From NCBI GenBank assembly GCA_022822785.1, contig JAJEAL010000018.1, positions 1 to 48,258 of the forward strand: a stretch of DNA of 48,258 nt, in the 5' to 3' direction. Made by a program: the position numbers and the translations under genes. Each line of letters begins with the position of its first letter. Position 1 is the first letter of the stretch. Origin of the DNA: Candidatus Poribacteria bacterium (GTDB lineage: Bacteria > Poribacteria > WGA-4E > PCPOR2b). A model generated the notes under the pieces. It made no database searches and had not been told where the DNA came from. It saw nothing but the letters and a program-made list of their open reading frames with translations. This document shows, one piece after another, positions 1,455-17,530 of the stretch.

Positions 1455-2282
1455 CTATCCGACTTCCTCACCGTCAAGCCTACCAACCTGCAGATCGATC
1501 TCTTCGCGGGTCTCCATTTTCTCGATTTTGCCATCCGCCATGTAGAAGATACGATCTGACACATCGAGCATCTTCGTATCGTGAGTGGCTGTGATGATTG
1601 TAACGCCGTTGTCCTCGTTCAAGCTTTTCAAGAGGTCAATAATCTCAAGCCCCGTCCGTGTGTCTAGGTTTCCCGTCGGTTCATCTGCAAGCACAATCGC
1701 GGGATCGTTCGCTAGAGAACGCGCCACGGCGACACGTTGCTGCTGACCGCCAGAGAGCTCAAGTGGCTTATGCTGAATCCGTTCCCCCAGTCCCACAGTG
1801 GTTAGCAGCTCAATCGCCTTTGTACGGCTATCGTCAGCGGTCATCCCGGCGAAGATCATGGGGAGCGAAACATTTTCGAGCGCGGTCATCACGGGGATTA
1901 GGTTGAACGTCTGGAAAATGTATCCGATTTTGCGGCAGCGCAGCCATGCCAATTCGTAGGCATCCAATTGCGCGATATCTACCTCATCGATATAAACCCT
2001 GCCTTCTGTTGGCTTGTCCAAGCCGCCAATCATGTTGAAAAGCGTCGACTTGCCGGAACCTGAAGGGCCCATAATCGAGATGTATTCGCCGCGGCGGATT
2101 TCAAAGTTTGTGCCGCGCAACGCCTCAACAATGGTGGTGCCCATCTCGTACTTCTTAATCAGGTTTCTGACCCGCACCGTATTCTCCTTGGGAAGATCTC
2201 TTGCAAACCGGGCGGGCGTTTCTGTTGGAATTGCAGTATGCGCTGCTGTTTCCGGGGGGAGTCCTTCTGGAAATTCTGCCAT
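1455..2282 (-). CDS. ABC transporter ATP-binding protein, LolD/MacB type
   Basis: A 275-aa cytoplasmic ATPase. Walker A is GPSGSGKST (72-80), the signature is LSGGQQQRVA (176-185), Walker B runs through IVLADEPTGNLD (196-207), and the H-loop histidine is in ATHD (231-234). The EPTGNLD version is characteristic of the MacB/LolD/FtsE branch, whose partners are FtsX-type permeases. A polar N-terminal extension of about 35 residues precedes the fold. It is the last gene of the minus-strand operon, separated by 1 bp from the PqqD-like gene, with a GGAAA-type ribosome site about 9 nt before ATG. The obvious partner is the FtsX/MacB permease half of the giant protein at 8541-15956, the only FtsX-type permease in the window. 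The substrate is unknown; a mechanotransmission role as in MacB is an inference. Confidence 0.93.
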   Translation of the reverse strand: MAEFPEGLPPETAAHTAIPTETPARFARDLPKENTVRVRNLIKKYEMGTTIVEALRGTNFEIRRGEYISIMGPSGSGKSTLFNMIGGLDKPTEGRVYIDEVDIAQLDAYELAWLRCRKIGYIFQTFNLIPVMTALENVSLPMIFAGMTADDSRTKAIELLTTVGLGERIQHKPLELSGGQQQRVAVARSLANDPAIVLADEPTGNLDTRTGLEIIDLLKSLNEDNGVTIITATHDTKMLDVSDRIFYMADGKIEKMETREEIDLQVGRLDGEEVG

Positions 2283-2283
2283 T

Positions 2284-2703
2284 TTAGTTGTTTCCTTTCT
2301 TCGCTTTTTGGGGAACTGCGAATCCTACCATTCCCCGCTTACCTAACTGCTGCATGAACTGGAAAAGCGATGTCTCAGCCTCTTTTCTCGTCATGCGGTA
2401 TTTCCCACAAAGCTGATTGACAATCTGACTGATGGAGGTATGTCCATCGCACAGTTGCCACACAAAGGCGCCGACATCGTCTAAGACAACCACACGCTTG
2501 GGAGGTAACATAAACAGCTTTGCAACCAACCGTAGCCACAGCGTCTCTTTCTGGGGAATAACCAATGAAACTTCCCCTTTGTCATCGACCTCCCATTCGA
2601 TTAACTGGTTGCGGAGCGGCAATGATTTTAAAATGTCCCCTCGATTCAGCTGGGATTCTGGACGCTTTTTTAGCCTGAGTTTATAGAGGATTGAATTAAT
2701 CAT
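2284..2703 (-). CDS. PqqD-like (RRE-fold) protein
   Basis: A 139-aa protein. Residues about 55-125 carry the PqqD pattern: a conserved VVVLDDVGAFVWQLCDG segment (beta strands then helix), followed by helices with HTSISQIVNQLCGKY and a final MVGF strand. PqqD-like domains are winged-helix peptide-binding modules that recognise RiPP precursors, but many stand-alone copies have no known partner. The first ~50 residues are basic and unassigned. Its ATG overlaps the TGA of the lipoprotein gene upstream (ATGA), implying translational coupling, and it ends 1 bp before the ABC ATPase gene. No pqqA/B/C/E, radical SAM enzyme or precursor peptide is visible nearby, so PQQ synthesis is not supported. Binding a peptide segment of another operon protein is speculation. 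Confidence 0.75.
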   Translation of the reverse strand: MINSILYKLRLKKRPESQLNRGDILKSLPLRNQLIEWEVDDKGEVSLVIPQKETLWLRLVAKLFMLPPKRVVVLDDVGAFVWQLCDGHTSISQIVNQLCGKYRMTRKEAETSLFQFMQQLGKRGMVGFAVPQKAKKGNN

Positions 2704-3194
2704 CGTTTTTTTAGAAACTCAAAGGAATCTATACCCGAAGATTCCATGTCCAATACAAATACTCCCGGAGGGAGTACCCCATTCTCGACTTGATCAACAA
2801 TCACACTATAATCACCGCCCGGTCCTGCAAGCTTGGCAGCAAATTTAACGATGGTGCCATCTGGTCTTTCGTCCTCTTCCCATTGAACATAAACCACATT
2901 TGGATAGTGCAAATAGACTTTGCCATCTTGGTCTATGTCAGCCCCAACAAAATCACGATTCCCTTCACTCCATTTCTTAATCATAACTAGATTCAACAAT
3001 TCCAGTTGGTTCAAGGTATCAAGGGGTATCTGTGCGGTTTCTTCTTTCGGGTGCTTCCAAACCACTGAAAATGGGTAGTCTTCCGGAACTTCAGGATATT
3101 TGGTTTTTGCGGAACCCAACGTCGCACATCCACATATTATAGATACCCCGAATATCGCCAAAATAACCATTAGAAACATCTGACAGTATTTCAT
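2700..3194 (-). CDS. Predicted lipoprotein of unknown function
   Basis: A 164-aa exported protein. The N-terminus is a short basic start, a hydrophobic core (MFLMVILAIFGVSIICG) and a lipobox-like ICGC, with lipidation expected at the second Cys, followed by ATLGSAK. The mature part is polar and shows no family I recognise; it includes VKFAAKLAGPGGDYSVIVDQVENGV and a C-terminal GIDSFEFLKKR. The start is placed at the ATG ending at 3194 because AGGAG lies 7 nt upstream; an in-frame ATG 8 codons earlier would place basic residues ahead and has no such site. The gene overlaps the PqqD-like gene by 4 nt. It is probably an envelope accessory subunit of the operon's ABC-type system. Confidence 0.7.
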   Translation of the reverse strand: MKYCQMFLMVILAIFGVSIICGCATLGSAKTKYPEVPEDYPFSVVWKHPKEETAQIPLDTLNQLELLNLVMIKKWSEGNRDFVGADIDQDGKVYLHYPNVVYVQWEEDERPDGTIVKFAAKLAGPGGDYSVIVDQVENGVLPPGVFVLDMESSGIDSFEFLKKR

Positions 3195-3230
3195 CACTTT
3201 TCTCCTTTTAGGAATCATTGTGATTGGCTA

Positions 3231-4199
3231 TCAGTTATTAATAATTTCGTTTATTTTAGGCTTTACCTTTTGATGGCATTGGATACTTGCCGCAATCTCT
3301 GCTGCTGTCTTGGCTGCATCCTGCTTAGCAATCGCTTGAACGACGTAGATTCGGTTCGAGTGATGACAGTGCCAAAGGTGAACAGCGAAGGTCTTCCGAC
3401 GCATGATTTTGTCAATAACCAGAGCGGCTGCGAACGGAACACGGTCTATAATGCGGGTTTCTTCCCCGATTAGCGTCAGCTGCTCATCCGCATCACCGTT
3501 GCTATATTCAATTGAAAATCCATATCCGCGGATAGCTTTGGCATACCTTGCTCGAAACCACGACTCCAAATCCTGTTCTTTGAGCGCCACATCTGCGACA
3601 CCATACCGTTCGATGCTAACCTTTCGGCTCCCATCTACAAATGAAAAGAGTAGGTAGCCAGACAACAGCTTATGTTTATCAAGGCGATATCGCCGCGGGA
3701 CTTCCGCATTAAGCTGGTAGGCACTCCAAAGCGTTTCTTGTCCGACGGGGTGATCCTGCACAGACTTCAAAATCCGGTGGGTTGTCTCCCGAATATTCTC
3801 CTTCAGATGTCCCATCACCTGCACAATCGTGATTCGCTTGCAAGTGTGGCAGTGAAAAATAACGCCGCTTGCCCGAAATTCACCCTTCCAGTTGAAGAAA
3901 GCGACCTCTCTGCCGTCGAAGAATTCTGGATCTTTGATTAGGTTGACATTCCGTTGGATATGAAGATTTGTGTCTTTGCGTTTATAGTTTTTCCGAACGA
4001 GCTTGAAATAGTCATCAAGGACGCGCTGGAGGTCTGGCTTTTTCTGTTTTGATTCGGACCACTTTACCTCAAGGCGCGGCATATCCGCATCCTCTAGACG
4101 CAAATACCCACTCTTATCGTCGCCGGATAGTCCACTCAATTCCCAATCTTCAGGAAGTTCAAGGGTTATGCCACCCCATCCTAATGTTGTCCATTTCAT
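3231..4199 (-). CDS. Unknown two-repeat protein (tandem homologous halves)
   Basis: A 322-aa protein without signal peptide or clear membrane segment. I do not recognise the family. The N-terminal half starts with a WGGITLELPEDWELS segment resembling PsbP/DcrB-like openings, and contains FHCHTCKRITIVQVMG. The C-terminal half contains WHCHHSNRIYVVQAIA at the equivalent place, each followed by a helix ending in SVQ or SIQ, so the protein looks like an internal duplication of a ~150-aa domain. The HCHTCK/HCHH residues could bind metal, but this is a guess. ATG at 4199 is preferred over an in-frame GTG at 4211; neither has a clear ribosome site. It starts just after the stop of the upstream OPT-like gene, consistent with translational coupling. 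Confidence 0.65.
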   Translation of the reverse strand: MKWTTLGWGGITLELPEDWELSGLSGDDKSGYLRLEDADMPRLEVKWSESKQKKPDLQRVLDDYFKLVRKNYKRKDTNLHIQRNVNLIKDPEFFDGREVAFFNWKGEFRASGVIFHCHTCKRITIVQVMGHLKENIRETTHRILKSVQDHPVGQETLWSAYQLNAEVPRRYRLDKHKLLSGYLLFSFVDGSRKVSIERYGVADVALKEQDLESWFRARYAKAIRGYGFSIEYSNGDADEQLTLIGEETRIIDRVPFAAALVIDKIMRRKTFAVHLWHCHHSNRIYVVQAIAKQDAAKTAAEIAASIQCHQKVKPKINEIINN

Positions 4200-4214
4200 A
4201 ATGTGATACACGTA

Positions 4215-6209
4215 TTAAAACGGTTTGACAATCACCGCTTTGGAGACGAGTGCAACCGCAACTGTTCCCATGCCAACCAGTCCGACACCGCAGGTGAAGC
4301 CTGCCGCCAAAACAGGATTAAACATGAACCATCGTTTCAGACCAAATTTCTTAATCATGTAAAAACGACCGACAACTGCGCCGAACACTTTTGGCAGCAT
4401 CATTCCGGGGTCGGCACCGATACCGCCCACAATTCCGTAGAACCACATGCTGGGCATCTTCGCCGCCCAGAGCAGACCGTAGATTGCCATTGACGAGGTG
4501 AACCCTGCTGCCACGTAGTTGCCGCGAATAGCTTGCAACATCTGGCTATTGCCATCTCGGAGTGAGGTTTTCCACAGAGATTCGTTGGTCGCATAGAGGG
4601 GCCACCACGTCTGTGCGAAGGGATACTGTGCGGACGGAATCGGTGCAATTTTCCAAATAAAGTGCCAAACCACAATGCCAGAGACAATCAGAATCGGCAT
4701 AAGCAGCAGCCGTGCGGCGATATTACTGGTGAAAGTGGTGCCTGTCAATTCAAGGACACGCCAACTTTGGGTGCCACGTCCGTAGTCTTCATCGGGAAGG
4801 TGGACGAACCAGATGTCAATCTCCTCGTAGCGACTCAGGATAAATGTTGTTTCATGGAGGTACGGAATCTCGAAGAGGTCACGTCCAAGAATCCCGTAGG
4901 TCCGGGCAGTGATGTATGAATTGACCGGAGTATACAAAAAGGCGAAACCGAGTAGGAAAATTAACGGGAAATTCGGCACCATATAGGTATGGACGATATA
5001 GATAAACCCGCCCATCCCAAAAAGCCACAGGATAGCCATCAACCAGAGCGGGAAATCGCCGCGTCCGGGCGGCGGGTCTAACGTCCTGCGTAGTCCTGCG
5101 CCTTCCTGCCGGGTCTGTTTGAACTTCAGCACCATCGGAATGGAAGCTGCCATACCAACAAAAGCAAAACTGAACGATTTTCCCATCCCGAAGCTAATCC
5201 AGAAATCTAGACCGTTATATAAACCTACGCCGCGGACATCCAAGCCGGGCCGCCACTGATGTAGGATTTCCAGAGGATAGAGGATTCGTGGATTCAGAAT
5301 AAACTGGGTAAAGAATGCACCGGCTAACTCAGTCATGATGATGGGGAATGGCAGCACAAAACCGGTGAGTATCGCTCCAAAATCGGTCGATAGCGCGAGC
5401 ACGCCCGTTGGCGCAATCTCTTCGATTACGTTTGTGAAATCGATGAATGGAATCTTCAGCAGCTGAATCGGTGTTGACATCATCACGCCGGTGAGTGAGG
5501 GGACCCCGATATAGATAAAGCCCCAGATTAAGCCTGCCATAGAGCCGACTGAAAAGACACGCCACCGCCACGTTTCCGTGCGTCCGGTGGTCTCTGCTAA
5601 TGCCGTTGCGCCCTGCGCTTCGATGGGTGCCATCGGGTAAGGCAGCCGCTCCATGTCCGCGGTCAGGCGAAACAGGAAGTAGCCCGCACTGATATAGCGA
5701 ATCTCTCCCAACAGCTTGAATACCAGAAAGAATGCAATGGGCCAAAACCAGTCCATGTGCAGAAGCGATCGCTCGGCAAGTGCTATCGCATCCTTCGGTG
5801 GCACAATCCAGTAAGGGATCTTATCGGCAATTTCATAGGAGGCCGCTTGTGGCGTGTTGACAAAGTAGGCATACCAGATAAAACCGCGATACTGACCGCC
5901 GGAGCCGACCGCTGCACCGGTGAGTCCGAGCAGCATATAAAGTTCTTGTCGCCGAGCGGTTGTGAAGGATCGACGTGCTAATTCTGTGAACAAGATAACT
6001 GCGACCCACGGCGCTGCCCCTGCCCCTGACTGACCAGAGACTAAGGTCAGGTAGATTGACCCCGGCATCATAAGCAAGCCGACAAAAAGTGCGCCAAGAA
6101 AGACTTTCAGTGTTAAACCAGACTCAAAGGTTCGGATACCACCATCGATGTCGTATCGTTGAGCCCAGACCTGCCACTCTTCTGCTTGTGTAATTCGTTC
6201 TCTTGCCAT
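4215..6209 (-). CDS. OPT-like polytopic membrane protein, copy 1 (DUF6784/DUF6785-like)
   Basis: A 664-aa inner-membrane protein with about 12 hydrophobic segments. The first is near residues 30-57 (LTLKVFLGALFVGLLMMPG), followed by SGQSGAGAAPWVAVILFTEL, a pattern reminiscent of oligopeptide-transporter (OPT) family proteins. The family matches what I know as DUF6784/DUF6785 proteins of Poribacteria and Planctomycetes, with no assigned substrate. The C-terminal GGIGADPGMMLPKVFGAVVG and the final VSKAVIVKPF are almost identical in the neighbouring copy. The hydrophilic loop with SRYEEIDIWFVHLPDEDYG is also shared. The ATG has AGGA 6 nt upstream. It lies 50 bp after copy 2 in the same operon. 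The two may form a heterodimer, which is an inference. Confidence 0.85.
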   Translation of the reverse strand: MARERITQAEEWQVWAQRYDIDGGIRTFESGLTLKVFLGALFVGLLMMPGSIYLTLVSGQSGAGAAPWVAVILFTELARRSFTTARRQELYMLLGLTGAAVGSGGQYRGFIWYAYFVNTPQAASYEIADKIPYWIVPPKDAIALAERSLLHMDWFWPIAFFLVFKLLGEIRYISAGYFLFRLTADMERLPYPMAPIEAQGATALAETTGRTETWRWRVFSVGSMAGLIWGFIYIGVPSLTGVMMSTPIQLLKIPFIDFTNVIEEIAPTGVLALSTDFGAILTGFVLPFPIIMTELAGAFFTQFILNPRILYPLEILHQWRPGLDVRGVGLYNGLDFWISFGMGKSFSFAFVGMAASIPMVLKFKQTRQEGAGLRRTLDPPPGRGDFPLWLMAILWLFGMGGFIYIVHTYMVPNFPLIFLLGFAFLYTPVNSYITARTYGILGRDLFEIPYLHETTFILSRYEEIDIWFVHLPDEDYGRGTQSWRVLELTGTTFTSNIAARLLLMPILIVSGIVVWHFIWKIAPIPSAQYPFAQTWWPLYATNESLWKTSLRDGNSQMLQAIRGNYVAAGFTSSMAIYGLLWAAKMPSMWFYGIVGGIGADPGMMLPKVFGAVVGRFYMIKKFGLKRWFMFNPVLAAGFTCGVGLVGMGTVAVALVSKAVIVKPF

Positions 6210-6259
6210 AGAAATTCCTAGTTCATTGGTTCATCGCTGATAAATAATATACCAATGAG

Positions 6260-8257
6260 TTAAAACGGTTTGACAATTACAGCTTTAGAGACCAGTGCAA
6301 TCGCAACTGTTCCCATGCCAACCAGCCCGACCCCACAGGTAAAACCTGCTGCTAAAACAGGGTTATACATGAACCATCGTTTCAGACCGAACTGCTTAAT
6401 CATATAAAAACGACCGATGAGTGCGCCAATAACCCGCGGGATCATCATCCCTGGGTCTTGACCGATGCCCCCGACAATTCCGTAGAACCACATACTTGGT
6501 AATTTCGCTGCCCAGAGAATACCGTAAATTGCGAGGGAAGAGGTAAAGCCGGCTGAAACATAATCACCACGAATGGCTTGCAGCATCTGACTATTTCCAT
6601 CTCGAAGTGAGGTCTTCCAAAGAGCCTCATCAGTCGCGTAAAGGGGCCACCATGTTTGTGCAAACGGATACTGTGAGGAGGGGATAGGCGCGATTTTCCA
6701 GATAAAATGCCAGACCACAATGGTTGCAACAATCAAGAGTGGCACCATCAGGGCGCGTCCAAGGACATCGCTAGTGAAGGTTGTACCGGTCAATTCAAGC
6801 ACACGCCAATGTTGGGTGCCCGCGCCGTAATCTTCGTCCGGTAGATGGACAAACCAGATATCAATCTCCTCGTAACGACTCAAAATGAACGTTGCCTGAT
6901 GGATGTAAGGAAGCACAAAGAGCGGACGGCCCAACACCCCAAATGTTCGGGCGTTGATATAGGAATGTAACGGGGTGTATAAAAAAGCAAAGCCAAGCAG
7001 GAAAGAAACGGGAAAGTTTGGAACCATCCGATGCACAATCCATACATACACTATCATGCTGAGGACCCACAACCCCCCCATTAACCAGATTGGGAAATCG
7101 CCACGTCCCGGCGGCGTTTGCAGCGAGCCACGCGTTCCTGCCTGTTGCTGTTGCGATTGTTTCATGCTCAGCATAATTGGGATGGACGCTGCCAACCCAA
7201 CCGCAGCAAAACTAAAGGATTTACCCATATTGAAACTTAACCAAAAATCAAGGTCATTAAACAACTTGACGCCACGCATATCCAGTCCGGGACGCCACTG
7301 ATGCAGAATTTCTAACGGATACAGGATGCGCGGATTCAGGACAAACTGAGTGAACATCGCTGAAGCAAACTCACTCATAATGATTGGGAACGGCAGCACA
7401 AAGCCCTGTAATATCAGGCCGAAATCTGTCCACAGAGCAAACATTCCCGATGGCGCGAAACTTTCGATGCTTGGGGTGAAATCGATAAATGGAATTTTCA
7501 GAATCTCTATCGGTGTTGACATCATCACCCCTGTCAGCGAGGGGATACCGATATAGAAAAAGCCCCAGAACAGGCCCGCCATAGAGCCGATCGAAAAGAC
7601 ACGCCACCGCCATGTTTCGCCCTGCCCTGTAGTTTCTGCTAATGCGGTTGCACCTTGTGCTTGAATCGGTGCCAACGGATACGGAAGCCGCTCTAAATCC
7701 GCTGTCAGACGGAAAAGAAAATAGCTCGCACTGATATAGCGAACCTCGGCTAGCAACTTCATGACCAAAAAAATTGCAAGAGGCCAGAACCAATCCATGT
7801 GTAGGAGTGAACGTTCTGCAATCGCCACCGCGTCTTTTGCTGGCGCGACCCAATAGGGGATTTTGTCCGCGATTTCATACGACTCAGCTTGCGGCGTATT
7901 AATAAAATAGGCGTACCAGACAAAAGGATAAGCGCGATAATGGATTCCAGAGCCGACTGCGGCGCCGGTTAACCCGAGCAGAATGTAGAGCTCTTGTCTT
8001 CTTGCTGTCGTAAATGACCGGCGTGCCAATTCGGTAAATAGAATGACCGCCACCCACGGTGCTGCCCCTGCCCCCGACTGACCGGCGACTAAGGTCAGAT
8101 AGATTGAACCCGGCATCATCAACAGTCCGATAAAGACCGCACCAAGAAAGACTTTCAAGGTTAAACCGGATTCAAAGGTTCTTAAACCGCCTTCAACATC
8201 ATAGCGTTGTGCCCAAGCCTGCCACTCTTCAGCTTGCGACACGCGTTCTCTTGCCAA
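6260..8257 (-). CDS. OPT-like polytopic membrane protein, copy 2 (DUF6784/DUF6785-like)
   Basis: A 665-aa paralogue of the downstream gene, aligning end to end with similarity strongest in the first ~130 and last ~200 residues. Differences concentrate in the central part (residues ~370-450), where this copy has a QSQQQQAG loop. About 12 membrane segments are visible. The start is TTG ending at 8257, supported by AAAGGAG 7 nt upstream; no in-frame ATG is close by. The copy downstream uses ATG. It lies between a 55-aa membrane-protein gene and its paralogue, so the three are probably co-translated. Transport of peptides or metal chelates would fit the OPT superfamily, but no substrate residues are established for this subgroup. 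Confidence 0.85.
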   Translation of the reverse strand: MARERVSQAEEWQAWAQRYDVEGGLRTFESGLTLKVFLGAVFIGLLMMPGSIYLTLVAGQSGAGAAPWVAVILFTELARRSFTTARRQELYILLGLTGAAVGSGIHYRAYPFVWYAYFINTPQAESYEIADKIPYWVAPAKDAVAIAERSLLHMDWFWPLAIFLVMKLLAEVRYISASYFLFRLTADLERLPYPLAPIQAQGATALAETTGQGETWRWRVFSIGSMAGLFWGFFYIGIPSLTGVMMSTPIEILKIPFIDFTPSIESFAPSGMFALWTDFGLILQGFVLPFPIIMSEFASAMFTQFVLNPRILYPLEILHQWRPGLDMRGVKLFNDLDFWLSFNMGKSFSFAAVGLAASIPIMLSMKQSQQQQAGTRGSLQTPPGRGDFPIWLMGGLWVLSMIVYVWIVHRMVPNFPVSFLLGFAFLYTPLHSYINARTFGVLGRPLFVLPYIHQATFILSRYEEIDIWFVHLPDEDYGAGTQHWRVLELTGTTFTSDVLGRALMVPLLIVATIVVWHFIWKIAPIPSSQYPFAQTWWPLYATDEALWKTSLRDGNSQMLQAIRGDYVSAGFTSSLAIYGILWAAKLPSMWFYGIVGGIGQDPGMMIPRVIGALIGRFYMIKQFGLKRWFMYNPVLAAGFTCGVGLVGMGTVAIALVSKAVIVKPF

Positions 8258-8540: not shown

Positions 8541-11500
8541 TTAATCCGCGGGTTGGGTAACTAGACCACCAACACCCGGAGCGGTCTCGGTATCGCGCTC
8601 CTGTCGTCCACGTTCGTGGAATTCGCCTCGGATATCCGCACTGAACGTCCGCCAGATTAACAACTGCTTTCGTACAAGGTTAAGGAAACGGCGATTGACA
8701 CGCTTCCATGAGGCGATTTCGCCGCTCTCGCGATGGACATCGAGCTGAATCTTATATAACTCTTCCTCTTCGCCGCCGACAGGTATGGTCACAAGCCGAA
8801 TGGATTGACTGACCCCGAGATCGTAGGGCGCTAGCCATACCATCATGCTAATATTGTAGGCTTCTTCTTCCTCGTCTTTCCCTTCGACTGCCACGACGGT
8901 CCGACCGAAAGCGACCTGATCTGTGTAGAAATCACTCGCAGACTCGTCGGCGTGTGCCTCGAAGTAATCGCGCATGAAGATATTCAAGCCGAGCGACTCT
9001 TCCGCCAATACGGTGAACGGGAGATCGAAGTGCCACTCATCGCCTTCCGGCTCCGGCAACTGCCATTTCCGTTCAATGTCAGGTACCGCCATACGACTCG
9101 CTTTAATCGCGGGATATAGGGTACTGCCAATCACGACAATCATTACGATGATAGTTGCCACGACCGTTGACATTGATGAGTAGTTGAGGGTCAATCCGGC
9201 GAGTAAGCCGAAATTCACAAGGAGGGTCGCGACAACCTGACCGAGCAGGTAACCGAGCACCGCACCAACAATTGCATACACACACGCCTCTGCAAGGAAC
9301 AGAAAGGCGATGTGGACGGGAGCAAGTCCGACTGAACTGTAGATGCCGATTTCACGGACCCGTTCGTAGACTGCACCAAGCATCGTGTTTAGCACAATCA
9401 GCGACGCAATCAGGATGGGTATGAACAGGTTACCCATTCCTGAGAAAGAGGTCATGCCGATTGAACTATAGAGATAGGTATCACGATCCTTTCCAACGAA
9501 GAAATCGAGCGCAATGCGGTTCATCAGGGGTGCCATAATCAGGTCCAGCTTATCCGCCGCACTTAAAATATTTGGGTCACCAGGCTGCGCCTCCATATTT
9601 ACAGCGACCGAGCGCAACGTTCCGCCCTGATTCATCACTACCTCATACGGGAGGATAGCTACAGAGTCGGGAGGCAGATGGATATATTTCTCTAACTCTC
9701 CTTCCATCGCTTGGTTCTGCCCTTGTGCGCCGCCGCCTCGTGCTTCTTGCTGCTGCATCAGTTGGTAGTCGACGGGGGTTAACTCCTCACCATCGTTATC
9801 CTGTAGGTCTTTGAAACCGATGCCGAGGACGCCAGTAACCGTGAAGTTCGCACCGTATACTGAAACTGTTGCTCTACCCATATCGGCTTCGGTAATACCG
9901 AGCAGATCCGCCATACCTTTGGGTAACACACAGGCGTAGGGCCACTGTGTGGGCCATTCTGCTTCGTCGTCAGGGTGATACCATCTGCCGTACTGAAGAT
10001 AACGATCAATCCCTGTGACACCGGGCTCGTTTTCGCTCATCCCGACTAACATAGTCGCGGAGTAGGTCTTAGGCTGACCGGTAGTGGTATTGACAGGGGG
10101 TACAGGATCCTGCGGATTGGGAGTGCGTTCCAGCTGCACAAACGATTGATCACCGGTTCCCGCGGATTGATACCAGGCGCGCGGAGCGACGATGTTGTGC
10201 ACTCGCAGTACCGATTCTTCGCCCAACTCAATTAGGGAGCCTTGCTGCCGTAACCGGGCTAAGGACGCTTCAATTTCGTCGTTAATCTGCTTGTCGGACT
10301 TGCCAGCCTGGCCTAACCGCTTTTTCAACAATAACCGTAAGTCGTTCTCAGCAATCTGCGTTTTCCGTAAATCATTGGTAATCGAATTGACAACGGGTTC
10401 CTCAAGAGGATTCCAATACTGATCGCGGATAAGCATCCCGGTGTATCGAGGCGTCACTGAGGGCAGGTTAGTGCTGTTGGGCTGCATAAACGTGCGCACT
10501 GACGTAAAGGAGATGACCGTAAAGGTGAGAATAACCAGTGTACTACAGGTGAGGATAGTCCGTCCCTTCCGCTTACGCATATTGGAAATACCCAAGCTGA
10601 AAGCGGCAGCGGAGGCGGACAGACGGCCTACATCTGCTTTGTACACCTTCGACCCTTCCTGCTTAATTTTTTCCACCTGTTCCTCAAATTTGCGGACAAT
10701 GATACTGATTACGATTGCTGTCAATGCAAGGACAACGAACGCAATCAGGATGATAACGGGTGTTGTCGTGATCTGGAAGGCGGGGTGCACCTGCGCCAAA
10801 AAGAAAAACACTACCAAGAATATCGCAGCTGTCCCGGCAATCTGTTTTTGGACGGTTGGGAAGGCGAATATCAACCGTTCCATAAAGTAAGCAAACGGGA
10901 TGAGGAGTGCCAGATAAAACATCACCCCATTGACTACATCGTTGCCCGTTTTCTTCACATCCGGATAGGCACGGGACTCATAGCCCCAAGCAGCGCGGGC
11001 GAGTTTGAGTGCCTGCTGATAGTCTTGTTGGACGAGGGCAGCCTCCGCCTGATCTAGATGTTCGGCGGCATATTGGTGAAGTTGATCGAGCCGATCGCTA
11101 CTGATACCGAACCGTTTATATAAACTTGACCGGTTCTCATCGAGCCACCACATATCGCGCACAACAACGTATGGGGTTACGCGAATACTTCCGTTCTCGC
11201 GAACGACAAACCCTTCTCCGGTGTAGAGCGTGGGGTTTTTCGTTCCACTTTTGTTAGCTTTAATCAGCAGTAACCGTTTGCCAATCTGCCCATACGCCAT
11301 ACCGACCTTAATCCGGCTGTTCGGTTCCGAATAAACAAGGGCGATCGGCTCAGTCGCTGAGACACCTTCCTGCTGCCACGGTTTTGACACACCATATTTT
11401 TCTGGCGGGCTATCGCTTGCAGCATCAAATACTTCCAGTTCGCGAAGCGTCCGTAGGTATCGCTGATCCACGAGATCGTAGATGGTGGTCGATACACAGG

Positions 11501-14500
11501 GGAAAACCACAATCCGGCACCCGCGACGGTGGGTGTTGATGGGTATCAAGTTCGGCAGAAGTTTCGCACCAAAGTTGCCGAGGTCCGGTGCATACACAAT
11601 ATCCCCTGAATCGGCGTGGAGGATATACGCTTCTATCTCTTGCGTCCCTTTCGGACGGATGGTAGCCCGTCCCTCCATCGCAAGACCCGCGACCTCAAAG
11701 TTTCCTTTATTATCTCCTATGGTTATGAGATCGCCACGAACCCCCATCATGGTTTTGTGCTTACTCCGCAAGGCAAGAACAGGATACGCTACCGGCTTAT
11801 TTGGTAGTGCACTCTCGCGAGCGTCGTATTCGACGACATCGCCAAATAGGTTACAATAGAAGTTGCCTACTCGCGCGGCGGTGGGCATCTGCGGATCGCG
11901 CATCGCTTGGATGAGGACGGACGCAAGGGTTTTCGCTTGTTTATGCAGTGCTCCATCTTCGCTTAAATCCATCCGATCAATTGTATCGAGTGGGGTATCG
12001 GTCAGCACACGCGCATCGTCAATGGTGGCGAAAGCGATGCCAGTGAAACCGGTAAGGGTCGCGACTTCGCTATCAAAGGCAATCTTGCCGGGGATATAGG
12101 TCTTCCAAATCTTACCGCCACTCGCCGAGATTGCGTTGACGAAGTTGGTCTCGCCTCCGAAACCGGCGATGTCAATCAGCGTCTTGATATCATCGACCTC
12201 TTCTTGCGTAAACTCGGACGGGTCCTCATTGCGTAAAGCGAGCATAGCATCTAAACGGTTGAGCAGACGAACTCTATTTTTCCGGTTCTTTCGCGCCTCC
12301 CGGATGTCGTTTCGAATGAAGCGTTCCACCTCTTTGCGGATATACTCCATATCCTTGAGCATATCCTCAGACGGTTCGCCCTGGTTTCGCATCTGCTCAA
12401 ACTGCATTTTCATCAACCGCGAGACCCCGGAAAGTCCAACCAATGTTCCGTAGTGTTCGGTAACTAAACTTTCGAGGCTCTTACCTTCAATAGCCCGTTT
12501 CGGATCGATGCCAGCTGCAACCGTCCATTGCGTGTTCATCACCGCTTGGCGAATTTGGTCATCGGTGAAGGTCCATAGCTTCTGGATACGTTCGCCAAAA
12601 TCGGCGTCCTGCGCGTATTCCGCCAGCTTATTCCCAATCGATGCGAACTCGCGACGGAGGACAAATTCAGGTTGCTGATCATAGAACCACCCTTTGTTGA
12701 ATACGCCGAACTGGTCATTCTGGCTGGAAAGGTCGATGGAGATAAAGAGAGAGGTATAGTAGCGGTTGAAAAGATCTTGCAACGCAATTGCTTGTTCGAT
12801 GGTCCGTATCTTCCGTGTGTATTCCGTTTCGCTGATACGTGCTATCTTCTCCACCCGCTTTTGTAAGTTACGGAACCGAGCATTCCGCATTGTGAGCAGG
12901 TTATCCCGTAGAAGAATTTTAGTTTCTTCATCGAGATCCCGGTCAAGTCGGTCTAGAACGTTCAGCAGGTTCTGGAGTTCGACAATATCATTCTTAGCAC
13001 GTTTCTTAACCGTGTCTATTAGCTGCTGCTCTTCAAGGTAGCCAAAAATCTGCTCCCGAACATCCATCGCACGGTCTGCTGCGTCTTCGGGAAGATAGTG
13101 ACGGAGAACAAGTGCTTCTTCGGCAAGATAGGGACGATTCAACGACGCATGGCGTTCCAGGAAGGATTCAATTCGATAGCGTTCAAGGCGGGCGTTACGC
13201 ATCGCTGTTTCGAGAATACTCTGTTTATCTCTAGTGAGGTCATCAACCAGAATCTGGTCTAGCTCCCGTGAGGTCGCTGTGCCCGTTGTTGGATCCATCA
13301 TCTCTAGCTTCTGATGGAGTTGGGCTTGGACAGTCTCAAACTGCTTGAGGGTCGCTGCGTTGAGGAATAGCCTTAGCTCATCAACAAAGCCGCGGGGAAG
13401 GTGATCTGGTCTAGTGCCTAACTGAGTAATGGCGTTTTTGATGCGATCTTCGGCATCGCTGCTGTCGGGAATGCTTGCGAGTGCCCGTTCAAGGAGTTGG
13501 CGCTCCTCCGCGATGTACGCTTCTGGAGATTTCTCAGCGCGATTCACAATCCTACGGGCGACCTTAATTCGTTCCAACCCCTTAAAGTCGAGATGACGGT
13601 CTAGCAACTTCTCTTGTGCATACTGGAGCGTAAATTTCCGCGGGTCTTCAAATTCCCAGTCCTGCAAGGCTTCGGACAGTCGCTGCAGGTCTGCTTCTAA
13701 ATGCAAAGGTATACCGCTTGGCACAGGCAAGTAATAGCTCCCGTCCTCCCTTTCCTTCGGGACGAGATAGCTGCTGTCCGGCGTTTGCACATATCTTCCC
13801 TCAATCTGTTTCGCTTCTAAATCCACTACCAGCTGTTCTATCGCCCAAGCATCCAACCGCGCCATCGGTAAAGCAATCTGTTCAATCAACTCACGCTGCG
13901 TTTCGCGGCATTCCTCCAATGCCTGTGAACGTAATCTCAGAGTGCGCTGAAGCGTCGAACGGAGGAATTGAGTGGTCTGCAGCGCATCTTTCTTGAACTT
14001 CGCAAGATTTACTTCCAGGCGCGCCTTCTCCTCTTCAGTAAATCCCTGTTTCTCTCGTTTTTTCGTTGTTTCAAGCTTTTTCTTCTCTTTCTCCTTTGCA
14101 TCACGTTGGGCGTTACGCAAGCTATTAACTTTGTTTTTCGTCGATGCGAGATCAGCGAGGGTCGTTGCTAGGGAATCGACATCCGCTTTGAGTTGATGAA
14201 CTTCATGGAAAAAACCGGGAGGTAGGTCTACTAATACATTTCGATCAATCGACAGCAGGAGTTTACGTCCCAATTCCTCAAACTCGAACAGGTCGGTACT
14301 TAAGCCGCGTCGCAACCCGCGCATCGTTGGGGTACCGGGCGAATCAGAGTCCCGTCCAACGGTATCTTGACCAATCCCCTCCATAAATGCTCGCATCCCT
14401 CCCAATCCTTGAAAATGGGCGTCGGTTGCGACAAAAAGAAGTGAACGTCCCGGACGGAATTCCTCTTCGCTAAAGATACGGGCAAGCTCCAACAATGTGG

Positions 14501-15956
14501 CTATACCGCCGGTTGGGTCAGCACCCGGCGCAATCGCGGGAACCACTGACATTGAGTCGTAATAGCCGGTGATGACGACCAGTTCATCTTTCAGTGCCGG
14601 ATCCCCACCTTCGAGGAAGCCGCGGATATTTTGGCCAATCCGCTGTTCCCAAGTAATGGTGCTTGTGAGGCGTGCATACAGTTTCTGAGGCGGTGATTCA
14701 GTACCCATTTCTCCTTCACCGAGCATCGTCAATAGCTCGTCGGCATCCTGCTTGGAAATCCAGAAGCGTGGGATGTTGGCAGGCACTGTCAGAAATTTGT
14801 TCTCAGCCTCGCCACGGATAGTCGTCTCCGGCTCGATGAAGATTACCGCTTTGGCTCCAAGCATTGCGGCATTAATCCATTGGGTACTCGAATTGAAGTC
14901 GATCAGAACCACGCTGCCCTGCGGGATAAAAATGCTAGATTCAGAGGCGGCGACAAATTCACCCTCTTCGTCAATTTGTCCATCGTTGTTGTTATCGATG
15001 CCATCGGTGGCGTCACCGGGACGTTCATCTACGAACCCATCGCCATCGTTGTCAATACCGTCGGTATCCCACTGCAAAATCTCAGTGAGTGGCGGAATTT
15101 CACCATACTCGTCAATCTGTCCATCTTCGTTGTTATCGATACCATCTTGTGTTTTTTGGAGGTGACCGTTAAGCACGTCGTCGGTGATGCTGCCAACACC
15201 GATGCGAAAACGGTTAGCAATACCTTTTAGCGTGTCACCGGATTGAACTTTATACCAGAAACCGCCAATTTCTTTGCCATTGAACGAGGAAAGGTCGCCA
15301 CTACCGCCATAAAAGAGAGGAGCGGTCAACCCACCTGTGGGAATAAAGAGCGAGTTGCCTTCGACGAGCACCAGTTCGCCCGGTTCGTCTACTTCACCAT
15401 CGTCATCGTTATCGCTGCCATCCGTTGCTTGGTCTCGGAGGTATTGGTTATGCGGGTCATCTAAAATAGCTTGCGGGTCAATTTGATAGGATTTGGCAAT
15501 CTCCTCAAAGATTTCGCCCTCAGCTACCAAATGAGACACACCGTTGGGAAGGAGCGAGGTACGAACTAGGTTGGGCCACAAAGGCAAAATTTTGTAGGTC
15601 TTCAGAGTTGTCTTATCTTCGGAGAGAATTTCTACCTTTCCATCATCGTGGTCTATCGGGACAGAAACAGGAAACTCACGACTCTCGACGTTCTGTAAGC
15701 CAATCTCAACGAATTGGTCGAAGATATATTTGCTGCCTGATGCCGCTTCATCGTAGCCAGTAACACGGGTGGAAAGGTTGGATAGCCGAGCGATATCTTT
15801 TCGCATTCGACCAATCTCGACTTTGTCATGGATTTTGACCGCAACCTCGGAAAGTCCGACTGACAGCTGTTCATCAACAGCAAAACTCACCTGCGGACAC
15901 ACTAGCGCAAGGATGCAAAGCCATAAACCGATGTAAGAATACCTCTTCATGCTCAT
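8541..15956 (-). CDS. Giant FtsX/MacB-type permease fused to LysM-like, Asp-repeat and degenerate M28 peptidase-like domains
   Basis: A 2471-aa envelope protein. Start: ATG ending at 15956, with GGAGG 7 nt upstream; a Sec signal (MKRYSYIGLWLCILAL...SFA) follows. Order: LysM-like segments around residues 140-165 and 235-260 (VQSGDTLKGIANRFRI); four acidic repeats of the type DGIDNNNDGQIDE (~180-332), resembling thrombospondin-3/EF-hand Ca-binding loops; a PA/M28-like region (~350-520) with GYYDS and GADPTGG; a long coiled coil (~580-1240); a mixed region; then, from ~1670, three membrane segments, FtsX helix 1 (~1800), a MacB-like periplasmic domain (~1825-2160), the FtsX C-terminal helices (EIGIYSSVGLAPVHIAFLF) and a ~180-aa tail. 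In M28 the zinc ligands should be H, D, E/D, H; here GHYDS has become GYYDS and the EE pair is missing, so peptidase activity is doubtful. It heads the operon that ends with the matching ATPase. Confidence 0.88.
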   Translation of the reverse strand: MSMKRYSYIGLWLCILALVCPQVSFAVDEQLSVGLSEVAVKIHDKVEIGRMRKDIARLSNLSTRVTGYDEAASGSKYIFDQFVEIGLQNVESREFPVSVPIDHDDGKVEILSEDKTTLKTYKILPLWPNLVRTSLLPNGVSHLVAEGEIFEEIAKSYQIDPQAILDDPHNQYLRDQATDGSDNDDDGEVDEPGELVLVEGNSLFIPTGGLTAPLFYGGSGDLSSFNGKEIGGFWYKVQSGDTLKGIANRFRIGVGSITDDVLNGHLQKTQDGIDNNEDGQIDEYGEIPPLTEILQWDTDGIDNDGDGFVDERPGDATDGIDNNNDGQIDEEGEFVAASESSIFIPQGSVVLIDFNSSTQWINAAMLGAKAVIFIEPETTIRGEAENKFLTVPANIPRFWISKQDADELLTMLGEGEMGTESPPQKLYARLTSTITWEQRIGQNIRGFLEGGDPALKDELVVITGYYDSMSVVPAIAPGADPTGGIATLLELARIFSEEEFRPGRSLLFVATDAHFQGLGGMRAFMEGIGQDTVGRDSDSPGTPTMRGLRRGLSTDLFEFEELGRKLLLSIDRNVLVDLPPGFFHEVHQLKADVDSLATTLADLASTKNKVNSLRNAQRDAKEKEKKKLETTKKREKQGFTEEEKARLEVNLAKFKKDALQTTQFLRSTLQRTLRLRSQALEECRETQRELIEQIALPMARLDAWAIEQLVVDLEAKQIEGRYVQTPDSSYLVPKEREDGSYYLPVPSGIPLHLEADLQRLSEALQDWEFEDPRKFTLQYAQEKLLDRHLDFKGLERIKVARRIVNRAEKSPEAYIAEERQLLERALASIPDSSDAEDRIKNAITQLGTRPDHLPRGFVDELRLFLNAATLKQFETVQAQLHQKLEMMDPTTGTATSRELDQILVDDLTRDKQSILETAMRNARLERYRIESFLERHASLNRPYLAEEALVLRHYLPEDAADRAMDVREQIFGYLEEQQLIDTVKKRAKNDIVELQNLLNVLDRLDRDLDEETKILLRDNLLTMRNARFRNLQKRVEKIARISETEYTRKIRTIEQAIALQDLFNRYYTSLFISIDLSSQNDQFGVFNKGWFYDQQPEFVLRREFASIGNKLAEYAQDADFGERIQKLWTFTDDQIRQAVMNTQWTVAAGIDPKRAIEGKSLESLVTEHYGTLVGLSGVSRLMKMQFEQMRNQGEPSEDMLKDMEYIRKEVERFIRNDIREARKNRKNRVRLLNRLDAMLALRNEDPSEFTQEEVDDIKTLIDIAGFGGETNFVNAISASGGKIWKTYIPGKIAFDSEVATLTGFTGIAFATIDDARVLTDTPLDTIDRMDLSEDGALHKQAKTLASVLIQAMRDPQMPTAARVGNFYCNLFGDVVEYDARESALPNKPVAYPVLALRSKHKTMMGVRGDLITIGDNKGNFEVAGLAMEGRATIRPKGTQEIEAYILHADSGDIVYAPDLGNFGAKLLPNLIPINTHRRGCRIVVFPCVSTTIYDLVDQRYLRTLRELEVFDAASDSPPEKYGVSKPWQQEGVSATEPIALVYSEPNSRIKVGMAYGQIGKRLLLIKANKSGTKNPTLYTGEGFVVRENGSIRVTPYVVVRDMWWLDENRSSLYKRFGISSDRLDQLHQYAAEHLDQAEAALVQQDYQQALKLARAAWGYESRAYPDVKKTGNDVVNGVMFYLALLIPFAYFMERLIFAFPTVQKQIAGTAAIFLVVFFFLAQVHPAFQITTTPVIILIAFVVLALTAIVISIIVRKFEEQVEKIKQEGSKVYKADVGRLSASAAAFSLGISNMRKRKGRTILTCSTLVILTFTVISFTSVRTFMQPNSTNLPSVTPRYTGMLIRDQYWNPLEEPVVNSITNDLRKTQIAENDLRLLLKKRLGQAGKSDKQINDEIEASLARLRQQGSLIELGEESVLRVHNIVAPRAWYQSAGTGDQSFVQLERTPNPQDPVPPVNTTTGQPKTYSATMLVGMSENEPGVTGIDRYLQYGRWYHPDDEAEWPTQWPYACVLPKGMADLLGITEADMGRATVSVYGANFTVTGVLGIGFKDLQDNDGEELTPVDYQLMQQQEARGGGAQGQNQAMEGELEKYIHLPPDSVAILPYEVVMNQGGTLRSVAVNMEAQPGDPNILSAADKLDLIMAPLMNRIALDFFVGKDRDTYLYSSIGMTSFSGMGNLFIPILIASLIVLNTMLGAVYERVREIGIYSSVGLAPVHIAFLFLAEACVYAIVGAVLGYLLGQVVATLLVNFGLLAGLTLNYSSMSTVVATIIVMIVVIGSTLYPAIKASRMAVPDIERKWQLPEPEGDEWHFDLPFTVLAEESLGLNIFMRDYFEAHADESASDFYTDQVAFGRTVVAVEGKDEEEEAYNISMMVWLAPYDLGVSQSIRLVTIPVGGEEEELYKIQLDVHRESGEIASWKRVNRRFLNLVRKQLLIWRTFSADIRGEFHERGRQERDTETAPGVGGLVTQPAD

Positions 15957-16212: not shown

Positions 16213-16282
16213 GTAAATCACAATCGTTAGAAAGTGCAATAAACACCACTGTTCCGTTCCAAATCAAAGGAGGTATATGATT

Positions 16283-16621
16283 ATGTCGGTCTCAGCACGT
16301 ATTAAGGAACGACGGAATAGACTCGGAATTACGCAAACCCAACTTGCCAAAGCGGCACGATTGACCCCTGCGGCAATTTCACAGTTTGAGTCCGGTGCCC
16401 GTAAACCGGCTTTCGATACACTTTCCAGTCTCGCTGATGCGCTCAAAGTCACTACGGACTACCTACTCGGCAAGAAAGAGCAAGGTTACGACGACCTGTT
16501 AGCGGATCCGAAAGTCAGTATTATGTTTAGAGGCATCATGGAGCTTTCCGAGGAAGATAAGGAAACGATGCTCGAATTCTACCAGTTCCTCAAAGATAAA
16601 AACGACAAAAACCCAAAATAA
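16283..16621 (+). CDS. XRE-family (Cro/CI-type HTH) transcriptional regulator
   Basis: A 112-aa DNA-binding protein. Residues ~5-60 form the HTH_3 fold: RIKERRNRLGITQTQLAKAA, then LTPAAISQFESGARKP and TLSSLADALKVTTDYLLG. The C-terminal third (LLADPKVSIMFRGIMELSEEDKETMLEFYQFLK) resembles the tails of ImmR/SinR-like regulators. ATG at 16283 is preferred over ATG 16277, since AGGAGG (16268-16273) is 9 nt from the former and only 3 nt from the latter. The next gene, 21 bp on, encodes an ImmA/IrrE protease, the classical partner that cleaves or releases such repressors. Autoregulation is likely, but no clear operator palindrome was identified in the intergenic region. Confidence 0.9.
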   Translation: MSVSARIKERRNRLGITQTQLAKAARLTPAAISQFESGARKPAFDTLSSLADALKVTTDYLLGKKEQGYDDLLADPKVSIMFRGIMELSEEDKETMLEFYQFLKDKNDKNPK

Positions 16622-16642
16622 TGAAGGATCTGCTGCGTAAAC

Positions 16643-17530
16643 ATGAATCAGAGACCTTCCCGAAAGAATCAGATTGCAAAACCAGGCCCTGCTACACCCG
16701 TCCTAGAGCCTATTGAAGGGGCGCGTCAGCTGTTGCGTGAGTTAAATGTCCAGGGCATCCCGATCCAACCGCGAAAAATTGCGGCACAGCTGCAAATCGT
16801 CGTTTGGGAGCGCGAAATGGAAACCCCATACGACGGTTGCTTGATGCGGGTCGGTGACACATGGGGTATCCTGCTAAACAACCTGATTCAGTCACAGGCT
16901 CGAAAAAACTTTACAATCGCTCATGAACTAGGACACTACTACTTGGATGGGGGGCAAATTGAGGGGCAAGGCTCCGCTGCCGATAAAGAGGACGAAGCGG
17001 CAACATTTGCCACCCAGCACCGCTGCCAGCGCGAAGATCTGCGTGGATTCGATTCGCACCGATTGGAGGAGCAACGTGCCAATCAGTTCGCGGTCGAGCT
17101 GCTGATGCCCTCTCCCATTTTCCGAGCGGACGCTGCCGATCTGCCTAAAATCGGGTTGTCCGCAATCGGTGCGCTCGCTGCGAGGTACTCCACCTCTTTG
17201 ACCAGCACAGCCATTCGCTACACCCGCCTGAGCCCACATGTCTGCGCGATTGTATTGTCTGAGAGGAGGCAAATTAAATATTTAGCGTATTCAAATCGCT
17301 TTCGTCAAAATAGCGATTGCTATCTTGCTAGAAATAAACCGCTCCATCCCGACTCGGTCGCGGCCCAGCTTGAGAAAGACCGGTCAAAAGAGGTCAAAGA
17401 GGACCGACGCAAGGTCCCGTTGTCCTACTGGTGCTCGACGCCGTCAGATCAAGCCCTCATTGAGCAATCCCGCCGATTGCCTCGCATGAACCAAGTGCTC
17501 ACGTTTCTTTGGTTACCAGACACATCCTGA
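16643..17530 (+). CDS. ImmA/IrrE-family metallopeptidase
   Basis: A 295-aa cytoplasmic Zn-dependent protease-like protein. The active-site HELGH is at residues 94-98, within the typical FTIAHELGHYYL context, and the third-ligand region follows in EEQRANQFAVELLMP, which is characteristic of ImmA/IrrE. The N-terminal ~25 residues are polar. The C-terminal part (~180-295) extends beyond the minimal domain, as in IrrE, with no recognisable fold. Family members cleave XRE-type repressors in response to DNA damage, oxidative stress or mobile-element signals. The XRE gene immediately upstream in the same operon fits that scheme. No phage or ICE genes are visible, so this may be a chromosomal stress switch rather than a mobile-element immunity module. 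Confidence 0.9.
   Translation: MNQRPSRKNQIAKPGPATPVLEPIEGARQLLRELNVQGIPIQPRKIAAQLQIVVWEREMETPYDGCLMRVGDTWGILLNNLIQSQARKNFTIAHELGHYYLDGGQIEGQGSAADKEDEAATFATQHRCQREDLRGFDSHRLEEQRANQFAVELLMPSPIFRADAADLPKIGLSAIGALAARYSTSLTSTAIRYTRLSPHVCAIVLSERRQIKYLAYSNRFRQNSDCYLARNKPLHPDSVAAQLEKDRSKEVKEDRRKVPLSYWCSTPSDQALIEQSRRLPRMNQVLTFLWLPDTS

Follow-up and report, generated by a model that had tools for sequence, protein, structure and literature searches.

Type VII ABC systems use ATP to drive motion of FtsX-type transmembrane (TM) helices, and this motion is passed to periplasmic parts where the work is done (PMC5985334, PMC12646458). In MacB, the permease has four TM helices with a core domain after the first (PMC5985334). 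MacB, LolCDE, FtsEX, and YbbAP-TesA all combine an FtsX permease carrying a core domain between TM1 and TM2 with a separate LolD/MacB-type ATPase, and they act at the outer face of the membrane, which for YbbAP involves coupling to a periplasmic hydrolase (PMC12646458).

A second point of comparison is the group of M28 aminopeptidases that carry a PA domain, represented by 2ek8, Pseudomonas aeruginosa PaAP, and GCPII. In the Vibrio aminopeptidase of this family, the zinc ligands are His97, Asp117, Glu152, Asp179, and His256, and the catalytic residue is Glu151. The best-known inactive relatives of M28 enzymes are eukaryotic proteins, among them nicastrin, nicalin, and the transferrin receptor. 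Our search of the open-access literature on M28, FtsX, and Poribacteria returned no description of a protein that fuses an M28 domain to an FtsX permease.

Such a fusion is encoded in the 48,258-nucleotide stretch of poribacterial DNA analyzed here (the window). Its gene, delimited by an ORF check and Pfam matches, occupies positions 8541..15956 of the minus strand, as do all window features below unless stated otherwise, and it remains open for 2,471 amino acids from an ATG at 15956 to a stop codon at 8541. A GTG start would lengthen the frame to 16040. Hydropathy analysis indicates a signal peptide-like segment at residues 1-28 (15873..15956, hydrophobic at 9-27) and then TM helices from residue ~1673, and therefore residues 28-1673 are predicted to lie outside the cytoplasm. 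A first-pass annotation of the window had proposed an M28-like pseudo-peptidase ahead of an FtsX permease, citing the motifs GYYDS, GADPTGG, and TDAHFQGLGG. All three are found in the translation (residues 464-468, 478-484, and 511-520, respectively), and the proposal is upheld by our data because the canonical catalytic and zinc-binding set is lost and this loss is conserved both within and across phyla. The further suggestions in that annotation, namely peptide binding, a substrate-receptor role, and contact with calcium, stay hypothetical.

The window derives from a draft genome of 147 contigs, which could suggest a misassembly or a decayed gene in a single metagenome-assembled genome. However, full-length open frames occur in about 80 other genomes, single-contig assemblies among them, and the gene is under strong purifying selection. 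These observations refute an artefact, which we consider vanishingly improbable.

The C-terminal part of the protein has the layout expected of a type VII permease, with four TM helices and a core domain between the first two, as judged from hydropathy and the MacB_PCD model. This topology fits that of MacB. TM1 lies at residues 1799-1820 (10497..10562, hydropathy peak 1800-1818) and is followed by a MacB-like periplasmic core of ~350 residues in the TM1-TM2 loop (1821-2169, 9450..10496). This core matches MacB_PCD (PF12704) at 20.8 bits, which is below the cut-off, whereas the homologues L168 and L173 from other phyla score above it. TM2 to TM4 (2170-2289, 9090..9449) include the FtsX match (PF02687, residues 2178-2289), which scores 47.7 bits against a cut-off of 25.5, and hydropathy shows hydrophobic segments at 2178-2280. 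Further matches are to MacB, LolC, and YtrF. The fusion belongs to none of the named subfamilies (MacB, LolC/LolCE, cell division FtsX, and ADOP), since the scores of 28.5, 27.1, 24.8, 13.3, and 11.6 bits compare with NCBIfam cut-offs of 255-966. Three further elements surround this permease. A conserved beta-rich and helical domain precedes the membrane (1367-1672, 10941..11858), three extra TM helices stand before TM1 (1673-1756, 10689..10940, hydropathy peaks 1674-1753), and a C-terminal domain predicted to be cytoplasmic (2300-2471, 8544..9059) retains 0.60-0.89 identity over most of its length in distant orthologues. The extra helices and the C-terminal domain have no counterpart in MacB, LolCDE, FtsEX, or YbbAP-TesA, and these systems also differ from the fusion in lacking a peptidase-fold ectodomain with a lost active site within the permease chain.

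The assignment of the ectodomain to the M28 family draws on several methods. Peptidase_M28 (PF04389) matches residues 443-526 at 33.2 bits against a cut-off of 21.3, a match that spans only the first 78 of 193 model positions, whereas the same genome also codes for several ordinary M28 matches that cover nearly the whole model. Aligning residues 440-600 to canonical poribacterial M28 enzymes with hhalign gave a probability of 98% (E 2e-13), and sequence profiles of the fusion match the Vibrio aminopeptidase and nicalin (nicalin E 3.9e-6). A weak Nicastrin Pfam match appears in the orthologue L071, and PA (PF02225) matches the fusion weakly, under the Pfam cut-off. Structure prediction and comparison with M28 enzymes, as the first-pass annotation had recommended, recovered the M28 plus PA fold. 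Foldseek searches of the PDB with an AF2 model of residues 24-620, itself of moderate-to-low confidence (mean pLDDT 59), placed M28 enzymes with PA domains and the transferrin receptor at the top with probability 1.00 (2ek8, E 2.3e-8; PaAP; TfR1; GCPII). The same approach did not reveal the geometry of the pocket, because the ectodomain models are of low confidence (mean pLDDT 59-61) and their AF2 alignment consisted of poribacterial sequences only, so the modelled pocket is not reliable. A model of residues 318-1510, with confident helices and poor M28 halves, gave no significant Foldseek match.

The first-pass annotation had ended the M28 domain near residue 580 (range ~350-580). This boundary does not hold, because the domain continues at ~1069-1116 and ~1264-1366, past two large insertions. 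Evidence for this layout comes from five full-length homologues in other phyla (L168, L170, L171, L172, and L173; 1460-1634 aa) that are free of the insertions. In proteins of the L168 type the M28 domain runs without a break, and the poribacterial domain is therefore split but complete. Alignment with these homologues, supported by Foldseek, places the N-terminal part of the scaffold at residues 44-136 (15549..15827), and the PA domain follows in two pieces at 206-230 (15267..15341, from the alignment) and 346-440 (14637..14921, from the weak PF02225 match and Foldseek). The M28 core comprises piece a (441-526, 14379..14636, supported by Pfam, hhalign, profiles, and alignment), which holds Y465, D480, H514, and F515; piece b (1069-1116, 12609..12752, from homologue alignment), which holds D1075; and piece c (1264-1366, 11859..12167, from profile and homologue alignment), which holds D1320. 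A profile of the C-terminal half of M28 matched the expected place modestly, with a score of 25.6 compared to 22.4 or less in 200 of 200 column shuffles. A Pfam scan of the spliced M28 pieces produced a match no longer than before. Two earlier assignments were dropped on the evidence of the insert-free homologues: D571 as the equivalent of Asp179, for which they point to D1075, and a single helical insertion block from ~590 to ~1330, for which they show two inserts.

With the domain delimited, the zinc-ligand columns could be compared among homologues, a check that the first-pass annotation had also proposed. Among poribacterial sequences that cover each site, the His97 position is Tyr465 in 78 of 78, the Glu151 position is His514 in 78 of 78, the Glu152 position is Phe515 in 78 of 78, and the His256 position is Asp1320 in 79 of 79. 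The position near Asp117 (D480) is less uniform (D in 72, E in 3, and Q in 3), its loop lacks one residue compared to active enzymes, and the column alignment there is ambiguous by one residue. The equivalent of Asp179 is D1075, as established from homologues in other phyla. A second alignment of 63 mostly non-poribacterial sequences, with 61 counted per column, gave these residues: Y 31, F 26, and H 4 at the His97 position; E 31, D 10, N 7, S 6, T 6, and G 1 near Asp117; H in all 61 at the Glu151 position; F 51, Y 7, G 2, and H 1, with Glu in none, at the Glu152 position; D 59 and E 2 at the Asp179 position; and D in all 61 at the His256 position.

The five zinc ligands of M28 enzymes are thus represented by Y465, the variable D480, F515, D1075, and D1320, and the catalytic Glu151 by His514. 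The first-pass annotation was correct that the first zinc His and the catalytic Glu are missing and that the EE pair is gone, and the change of His256 to Asp1320 is a fourth altered site that it did not list. The Y465, H514, and F515 substitutions are not due to chance or sequencing error, and the replacement of Glu151, Glu152, and His256 in all phyla examined makes canonical di-zinc chemistry very unlikely. The His at the Glu151 position is not in itself proof of inactivity, because the title of a 2005 paper by Bzymek et al., listed in PMC4320195, calls an E151H aminopeptidase “functional.” A stronger argument for inactivity than His514 is that at least three zinc ligands are gone. The di-zinc site has been lost but is not in decay, and few parts of the protein are under tighter constraint than the pocket. 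Mean entropy of the pocket columns is 0.06 compared to 0.58 and 0.45 in the surrounding M28 pieces, a comparison that is descriptive because the columns were picked from motifs. The M28 pieces have dN/dS ratios of 0.014-0.024 within the genus, as low as those of the FtsX helices, although these ratios are approximate because synonymous sites are near saturation.

A pocket that is rewired rather than dead, with one metal bound at H514, D1075, and D1320 and another hydrolytic or metal-dependent binding role, must be weighed against this background. Each of the three residues is almost universal across several phyla, and their high conservation makes a one-metal site possible. The E151H enzyme described as functional points the same way, as do four paralogues from the G195 phylum group (L209, L210, L212, and L216) that keep a His at the His97 position and may retain a different metal site; L209 also has HH at the Glu-Glu pair. 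However, the position of the bridging ligand varies among D, E, N, S, T, G, and Q in its shortened loop, the Glu152 position is never Glu, and the His97 position is Tyr or Phe in 57 of 61 sequences, and we therefore judge a single-metal pocket unlikely.

Compared to M28 aminopeptidases with PA domains, with which it shares the scaffold, the PA domain, and sequence similarity to the Vibrio enzyme, the fusion has His97, Glu152, and His256 replaced, the Asp117 loop altered, and the catalytic Glu changed to His. Furthermore, the poribacterial domain is split by ~690 aa of helices. Nicalin, nicastrin, and the transferrin receptor are likewise membrane proteins with an M28 fold that lacks the canonical site, but they are eukaryotic, are not ABC permeases, and have other residues replaced, and we do not claim a common descent of the loss.

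The poribacterial insertions number four. Two lie in the PA domain: residues 137-205 (15342..15548), with a first LysM module and an Asp-rich repeat, and residues 231-345 (14922..15266), with a second LysM module and Asp-rich repeats. LysM-like segments had been noted in the first pass and are real, because the second module (235-258) matches PF01476 at 30.6 bits against a cut-off of 20.9 and the orthologues L071 and L078 have two LysM stretches. The Asp-rich repeats are also present, more precisely as short DGIDNDGDGxxDE-type repeats within the LysM insertions. The other two insertions are helical: insertion A at residues 527-1068 (~540 aa, 12753..14378), which AF2 predicts to be helical with pLDDT mostly 75-93, and insertion B at 1117-1263 (~147 aa, 12168..12608), placed by AF2 and homologue alignment. 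In alignments to the window protein, the five homologues from other phyla lack 137-205, 231-345, ~527-1068, and 1117-1263. The poribacterial members L098 and L073 also lack the first LysM module, which is therefore modular. At the position of insertion A, L173 (5845-10749) carries an F5/8 type C domain of carbohydrate-binding type (70.1 bits), so this loop takes inserts repeatedly. In the family tree, the tested poribacterial sequences group in a single clade (support 1.0), and the LysM and helical insertions are thus most simply lineage-specific.

These modules raise the question of whether the M28 domain is a mere scaffold or docking platform, similar to the transferrin receptor, with a ligand-free pocket and a separate wall hydrolase or other partner that does the work in the manner of FtsEX-EnvC. 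The LysM insertions suggest contact with the cell wall, the fold matches include the transferrin receptor, and both YbbAP (PMC12646458) and FtsEX (PMC7668044) work via periplasmic partners. However, the low entropy of the pocket, even though its columns were chosen from motifs, is hard to explain for a scaffold, and the absence of LysM outside Poribacteria means that wall docking cannot have been the ancestral role. We regard a purely passive platform as quite unlikely.

The gene neighborhood provides additional evidence on function. Across Poribacteria, the gene order is fusion, OPT-related, p326, PqqD-like, and ATPase, and in the window genus this cluster contains a second OPT copy and an additional lipoprotein-like gene. 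The OPT-related polytopic membrane proteins are encoded at 6260..8257 (copy a) and 4215..6209 (copy b, 81% identical to copy a). PF03169 (OPT) does not match the window proteins, and their assignment as OPT-related comes from 38% identity to the L172 and L168 homologues that match this model, L172 with 25.9 bits against a cut-off of 25.8. This tandem duplication (4215-8257) is seen in the window genus and L041, and most other Poribacteria have a single copy. The conserved p326 (3231..4211) has no assigned function. The lipoprotein-like protein (172 aa, 2700..3218) was not found beside p326 and PqqD in the inspected loci elsewhere. The PqqD-like protein, of the RiPP-recognition type (2284..2703), matches PF05402 at 56.4 bits. 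Finally, the LolD/MacB-type ATPase (1455..2282) best matches LolD, YbbA, MacB, and MJ0796, and Walker A, signature, and Walker B motifs are intact in 57 of 57 cluster ATPases. It is linked to the fusion across Poribacteria and is the putative partner of the permease. The OPT-related and PqqD-like neighbors further set the locus apart from MacB, LolCDE, FtsEX, and YbbAP-TesA.

The cluster extends beyond Poribacteria. L168 has the same order with two additions (fusion-OPT-p326-PqqD-miniFtsX-ATPase-GGDEF), L169, L247, and L248 have most of this cluster, and L173 has a rearranged version. Outside Poribacteria, fusion-OPT adjacency is retained in several phylum groups, the G208 group among them, and some also have PqqD, mini-FtsX, and ATPase genes there; in the stretch examined of some non-poribacterial genomes, a linked ATPase was not found. 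A search for a mini-FtsX beside the poribacterial fusion gave no hit. The window genome does encode an unlinked pair on another contig (L184, 8535-9955; G000 contig C53), consisting of a 226-aa mini-FtsX, 50% identical to that of L169, and a second LolD-type ATPase of 242 aa, and this pair is a possible second permease of the fusion system. In L168 (9412-10626), L169 (7022-8236), L247, and L248, the gene after the ATPase encodes a GAF-GGDEF protein resembling diguanylate cyclases.

The fusion is near-universal in Poribacteria and likewise in four further phylum groups that were sampled. It is present in 82 of 85 poribacterial genomes, and the three that lack it (G023, G033, and G034) are all draft assemblies. 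Outside the phylum, a sparse sample of ~204 genomes contained five with the fusion, and in the phylum groups to which these belong it occurs in 16 of 16 (several paralogues each), 2 of 2, 31 of 35, and 5 of 5 genomes. Scans of viral contigs found no M28 or fusion relatives, and plasmid searches returned generic FtsX or M28 proteins and no fusion. With nearly every genome of these five phylum groups carrying the fusion, a core envelope function is likely there.

We favor, with a probability of roughly 0.6, the reading that the fusion provides the permease of a so far undescribed type VII ABC system, related to MacB, FtsX, and LolCDE, and that its ectodomain binds rather than cleaves its ligand. 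The ectodomain is an M28 plus PA scaffold in which the di-zinc site has been exchanged for a strictly conserved pocket ([Y/F]YD, HF, D, DTP). Binding and hydrolysis of ATP by the cluster ATPase would shift the FtsX helices and thereby reposition the ectodomain, with the pseudo-peptidase head as the moved part that holds a ligand in the rewired pocket without cutting it. This ligand is probably a peptide or peptide-like, because the M28 fold and the OPT-related and PqqD-like partners belong to peptide-handling families. The cluster proteins would assemble into one complex, which may serve export, import, sensing, or wall remodeling. In Poribacteria, the LysM and Asp-rich modules and the long helical inserts would have been added later, probably tethering or extending the ectodomain toward the cell wall, with the LysM modules as possible anchors of the head on peptidoglycan. 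A broader model, in which one multi-phylum ABC machine uses an anciently inactivated or rewired M28 domain as a peptide-recognizing head, handles an envelope peptide together with OPT-type and PqqD-type partners, and was later tethered to the wall via LysM in Poribacteria, is offered tentatively.

The single parts are of known kinds, and it is the combination of an inactive M28 domain, a type VII permease, and a conserved multi-phylum cluster that appears to be undescribed. Most phylum groups with the fusion have no cultured model organisms. The conserved neighbors define a system that can be tested directly, and at ~1460 aa the insert-free homologues are of a size suited to cryo-EM.

Two observations concern the surroundings of the gene. 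The second fusion copies of G013 and G014, which have two each, lie away from the cluster (L066 and L071) with a DUF6785/DUF6784 gene a few kilobases downstream on the same strand. Upstream of the fusion in the window, a divergent pair of HTH and M78 (IrrE/ImmA-like) genes occupies 16277-17530, and the HTH gene is kept in this upstream place in most poribacterial loci.
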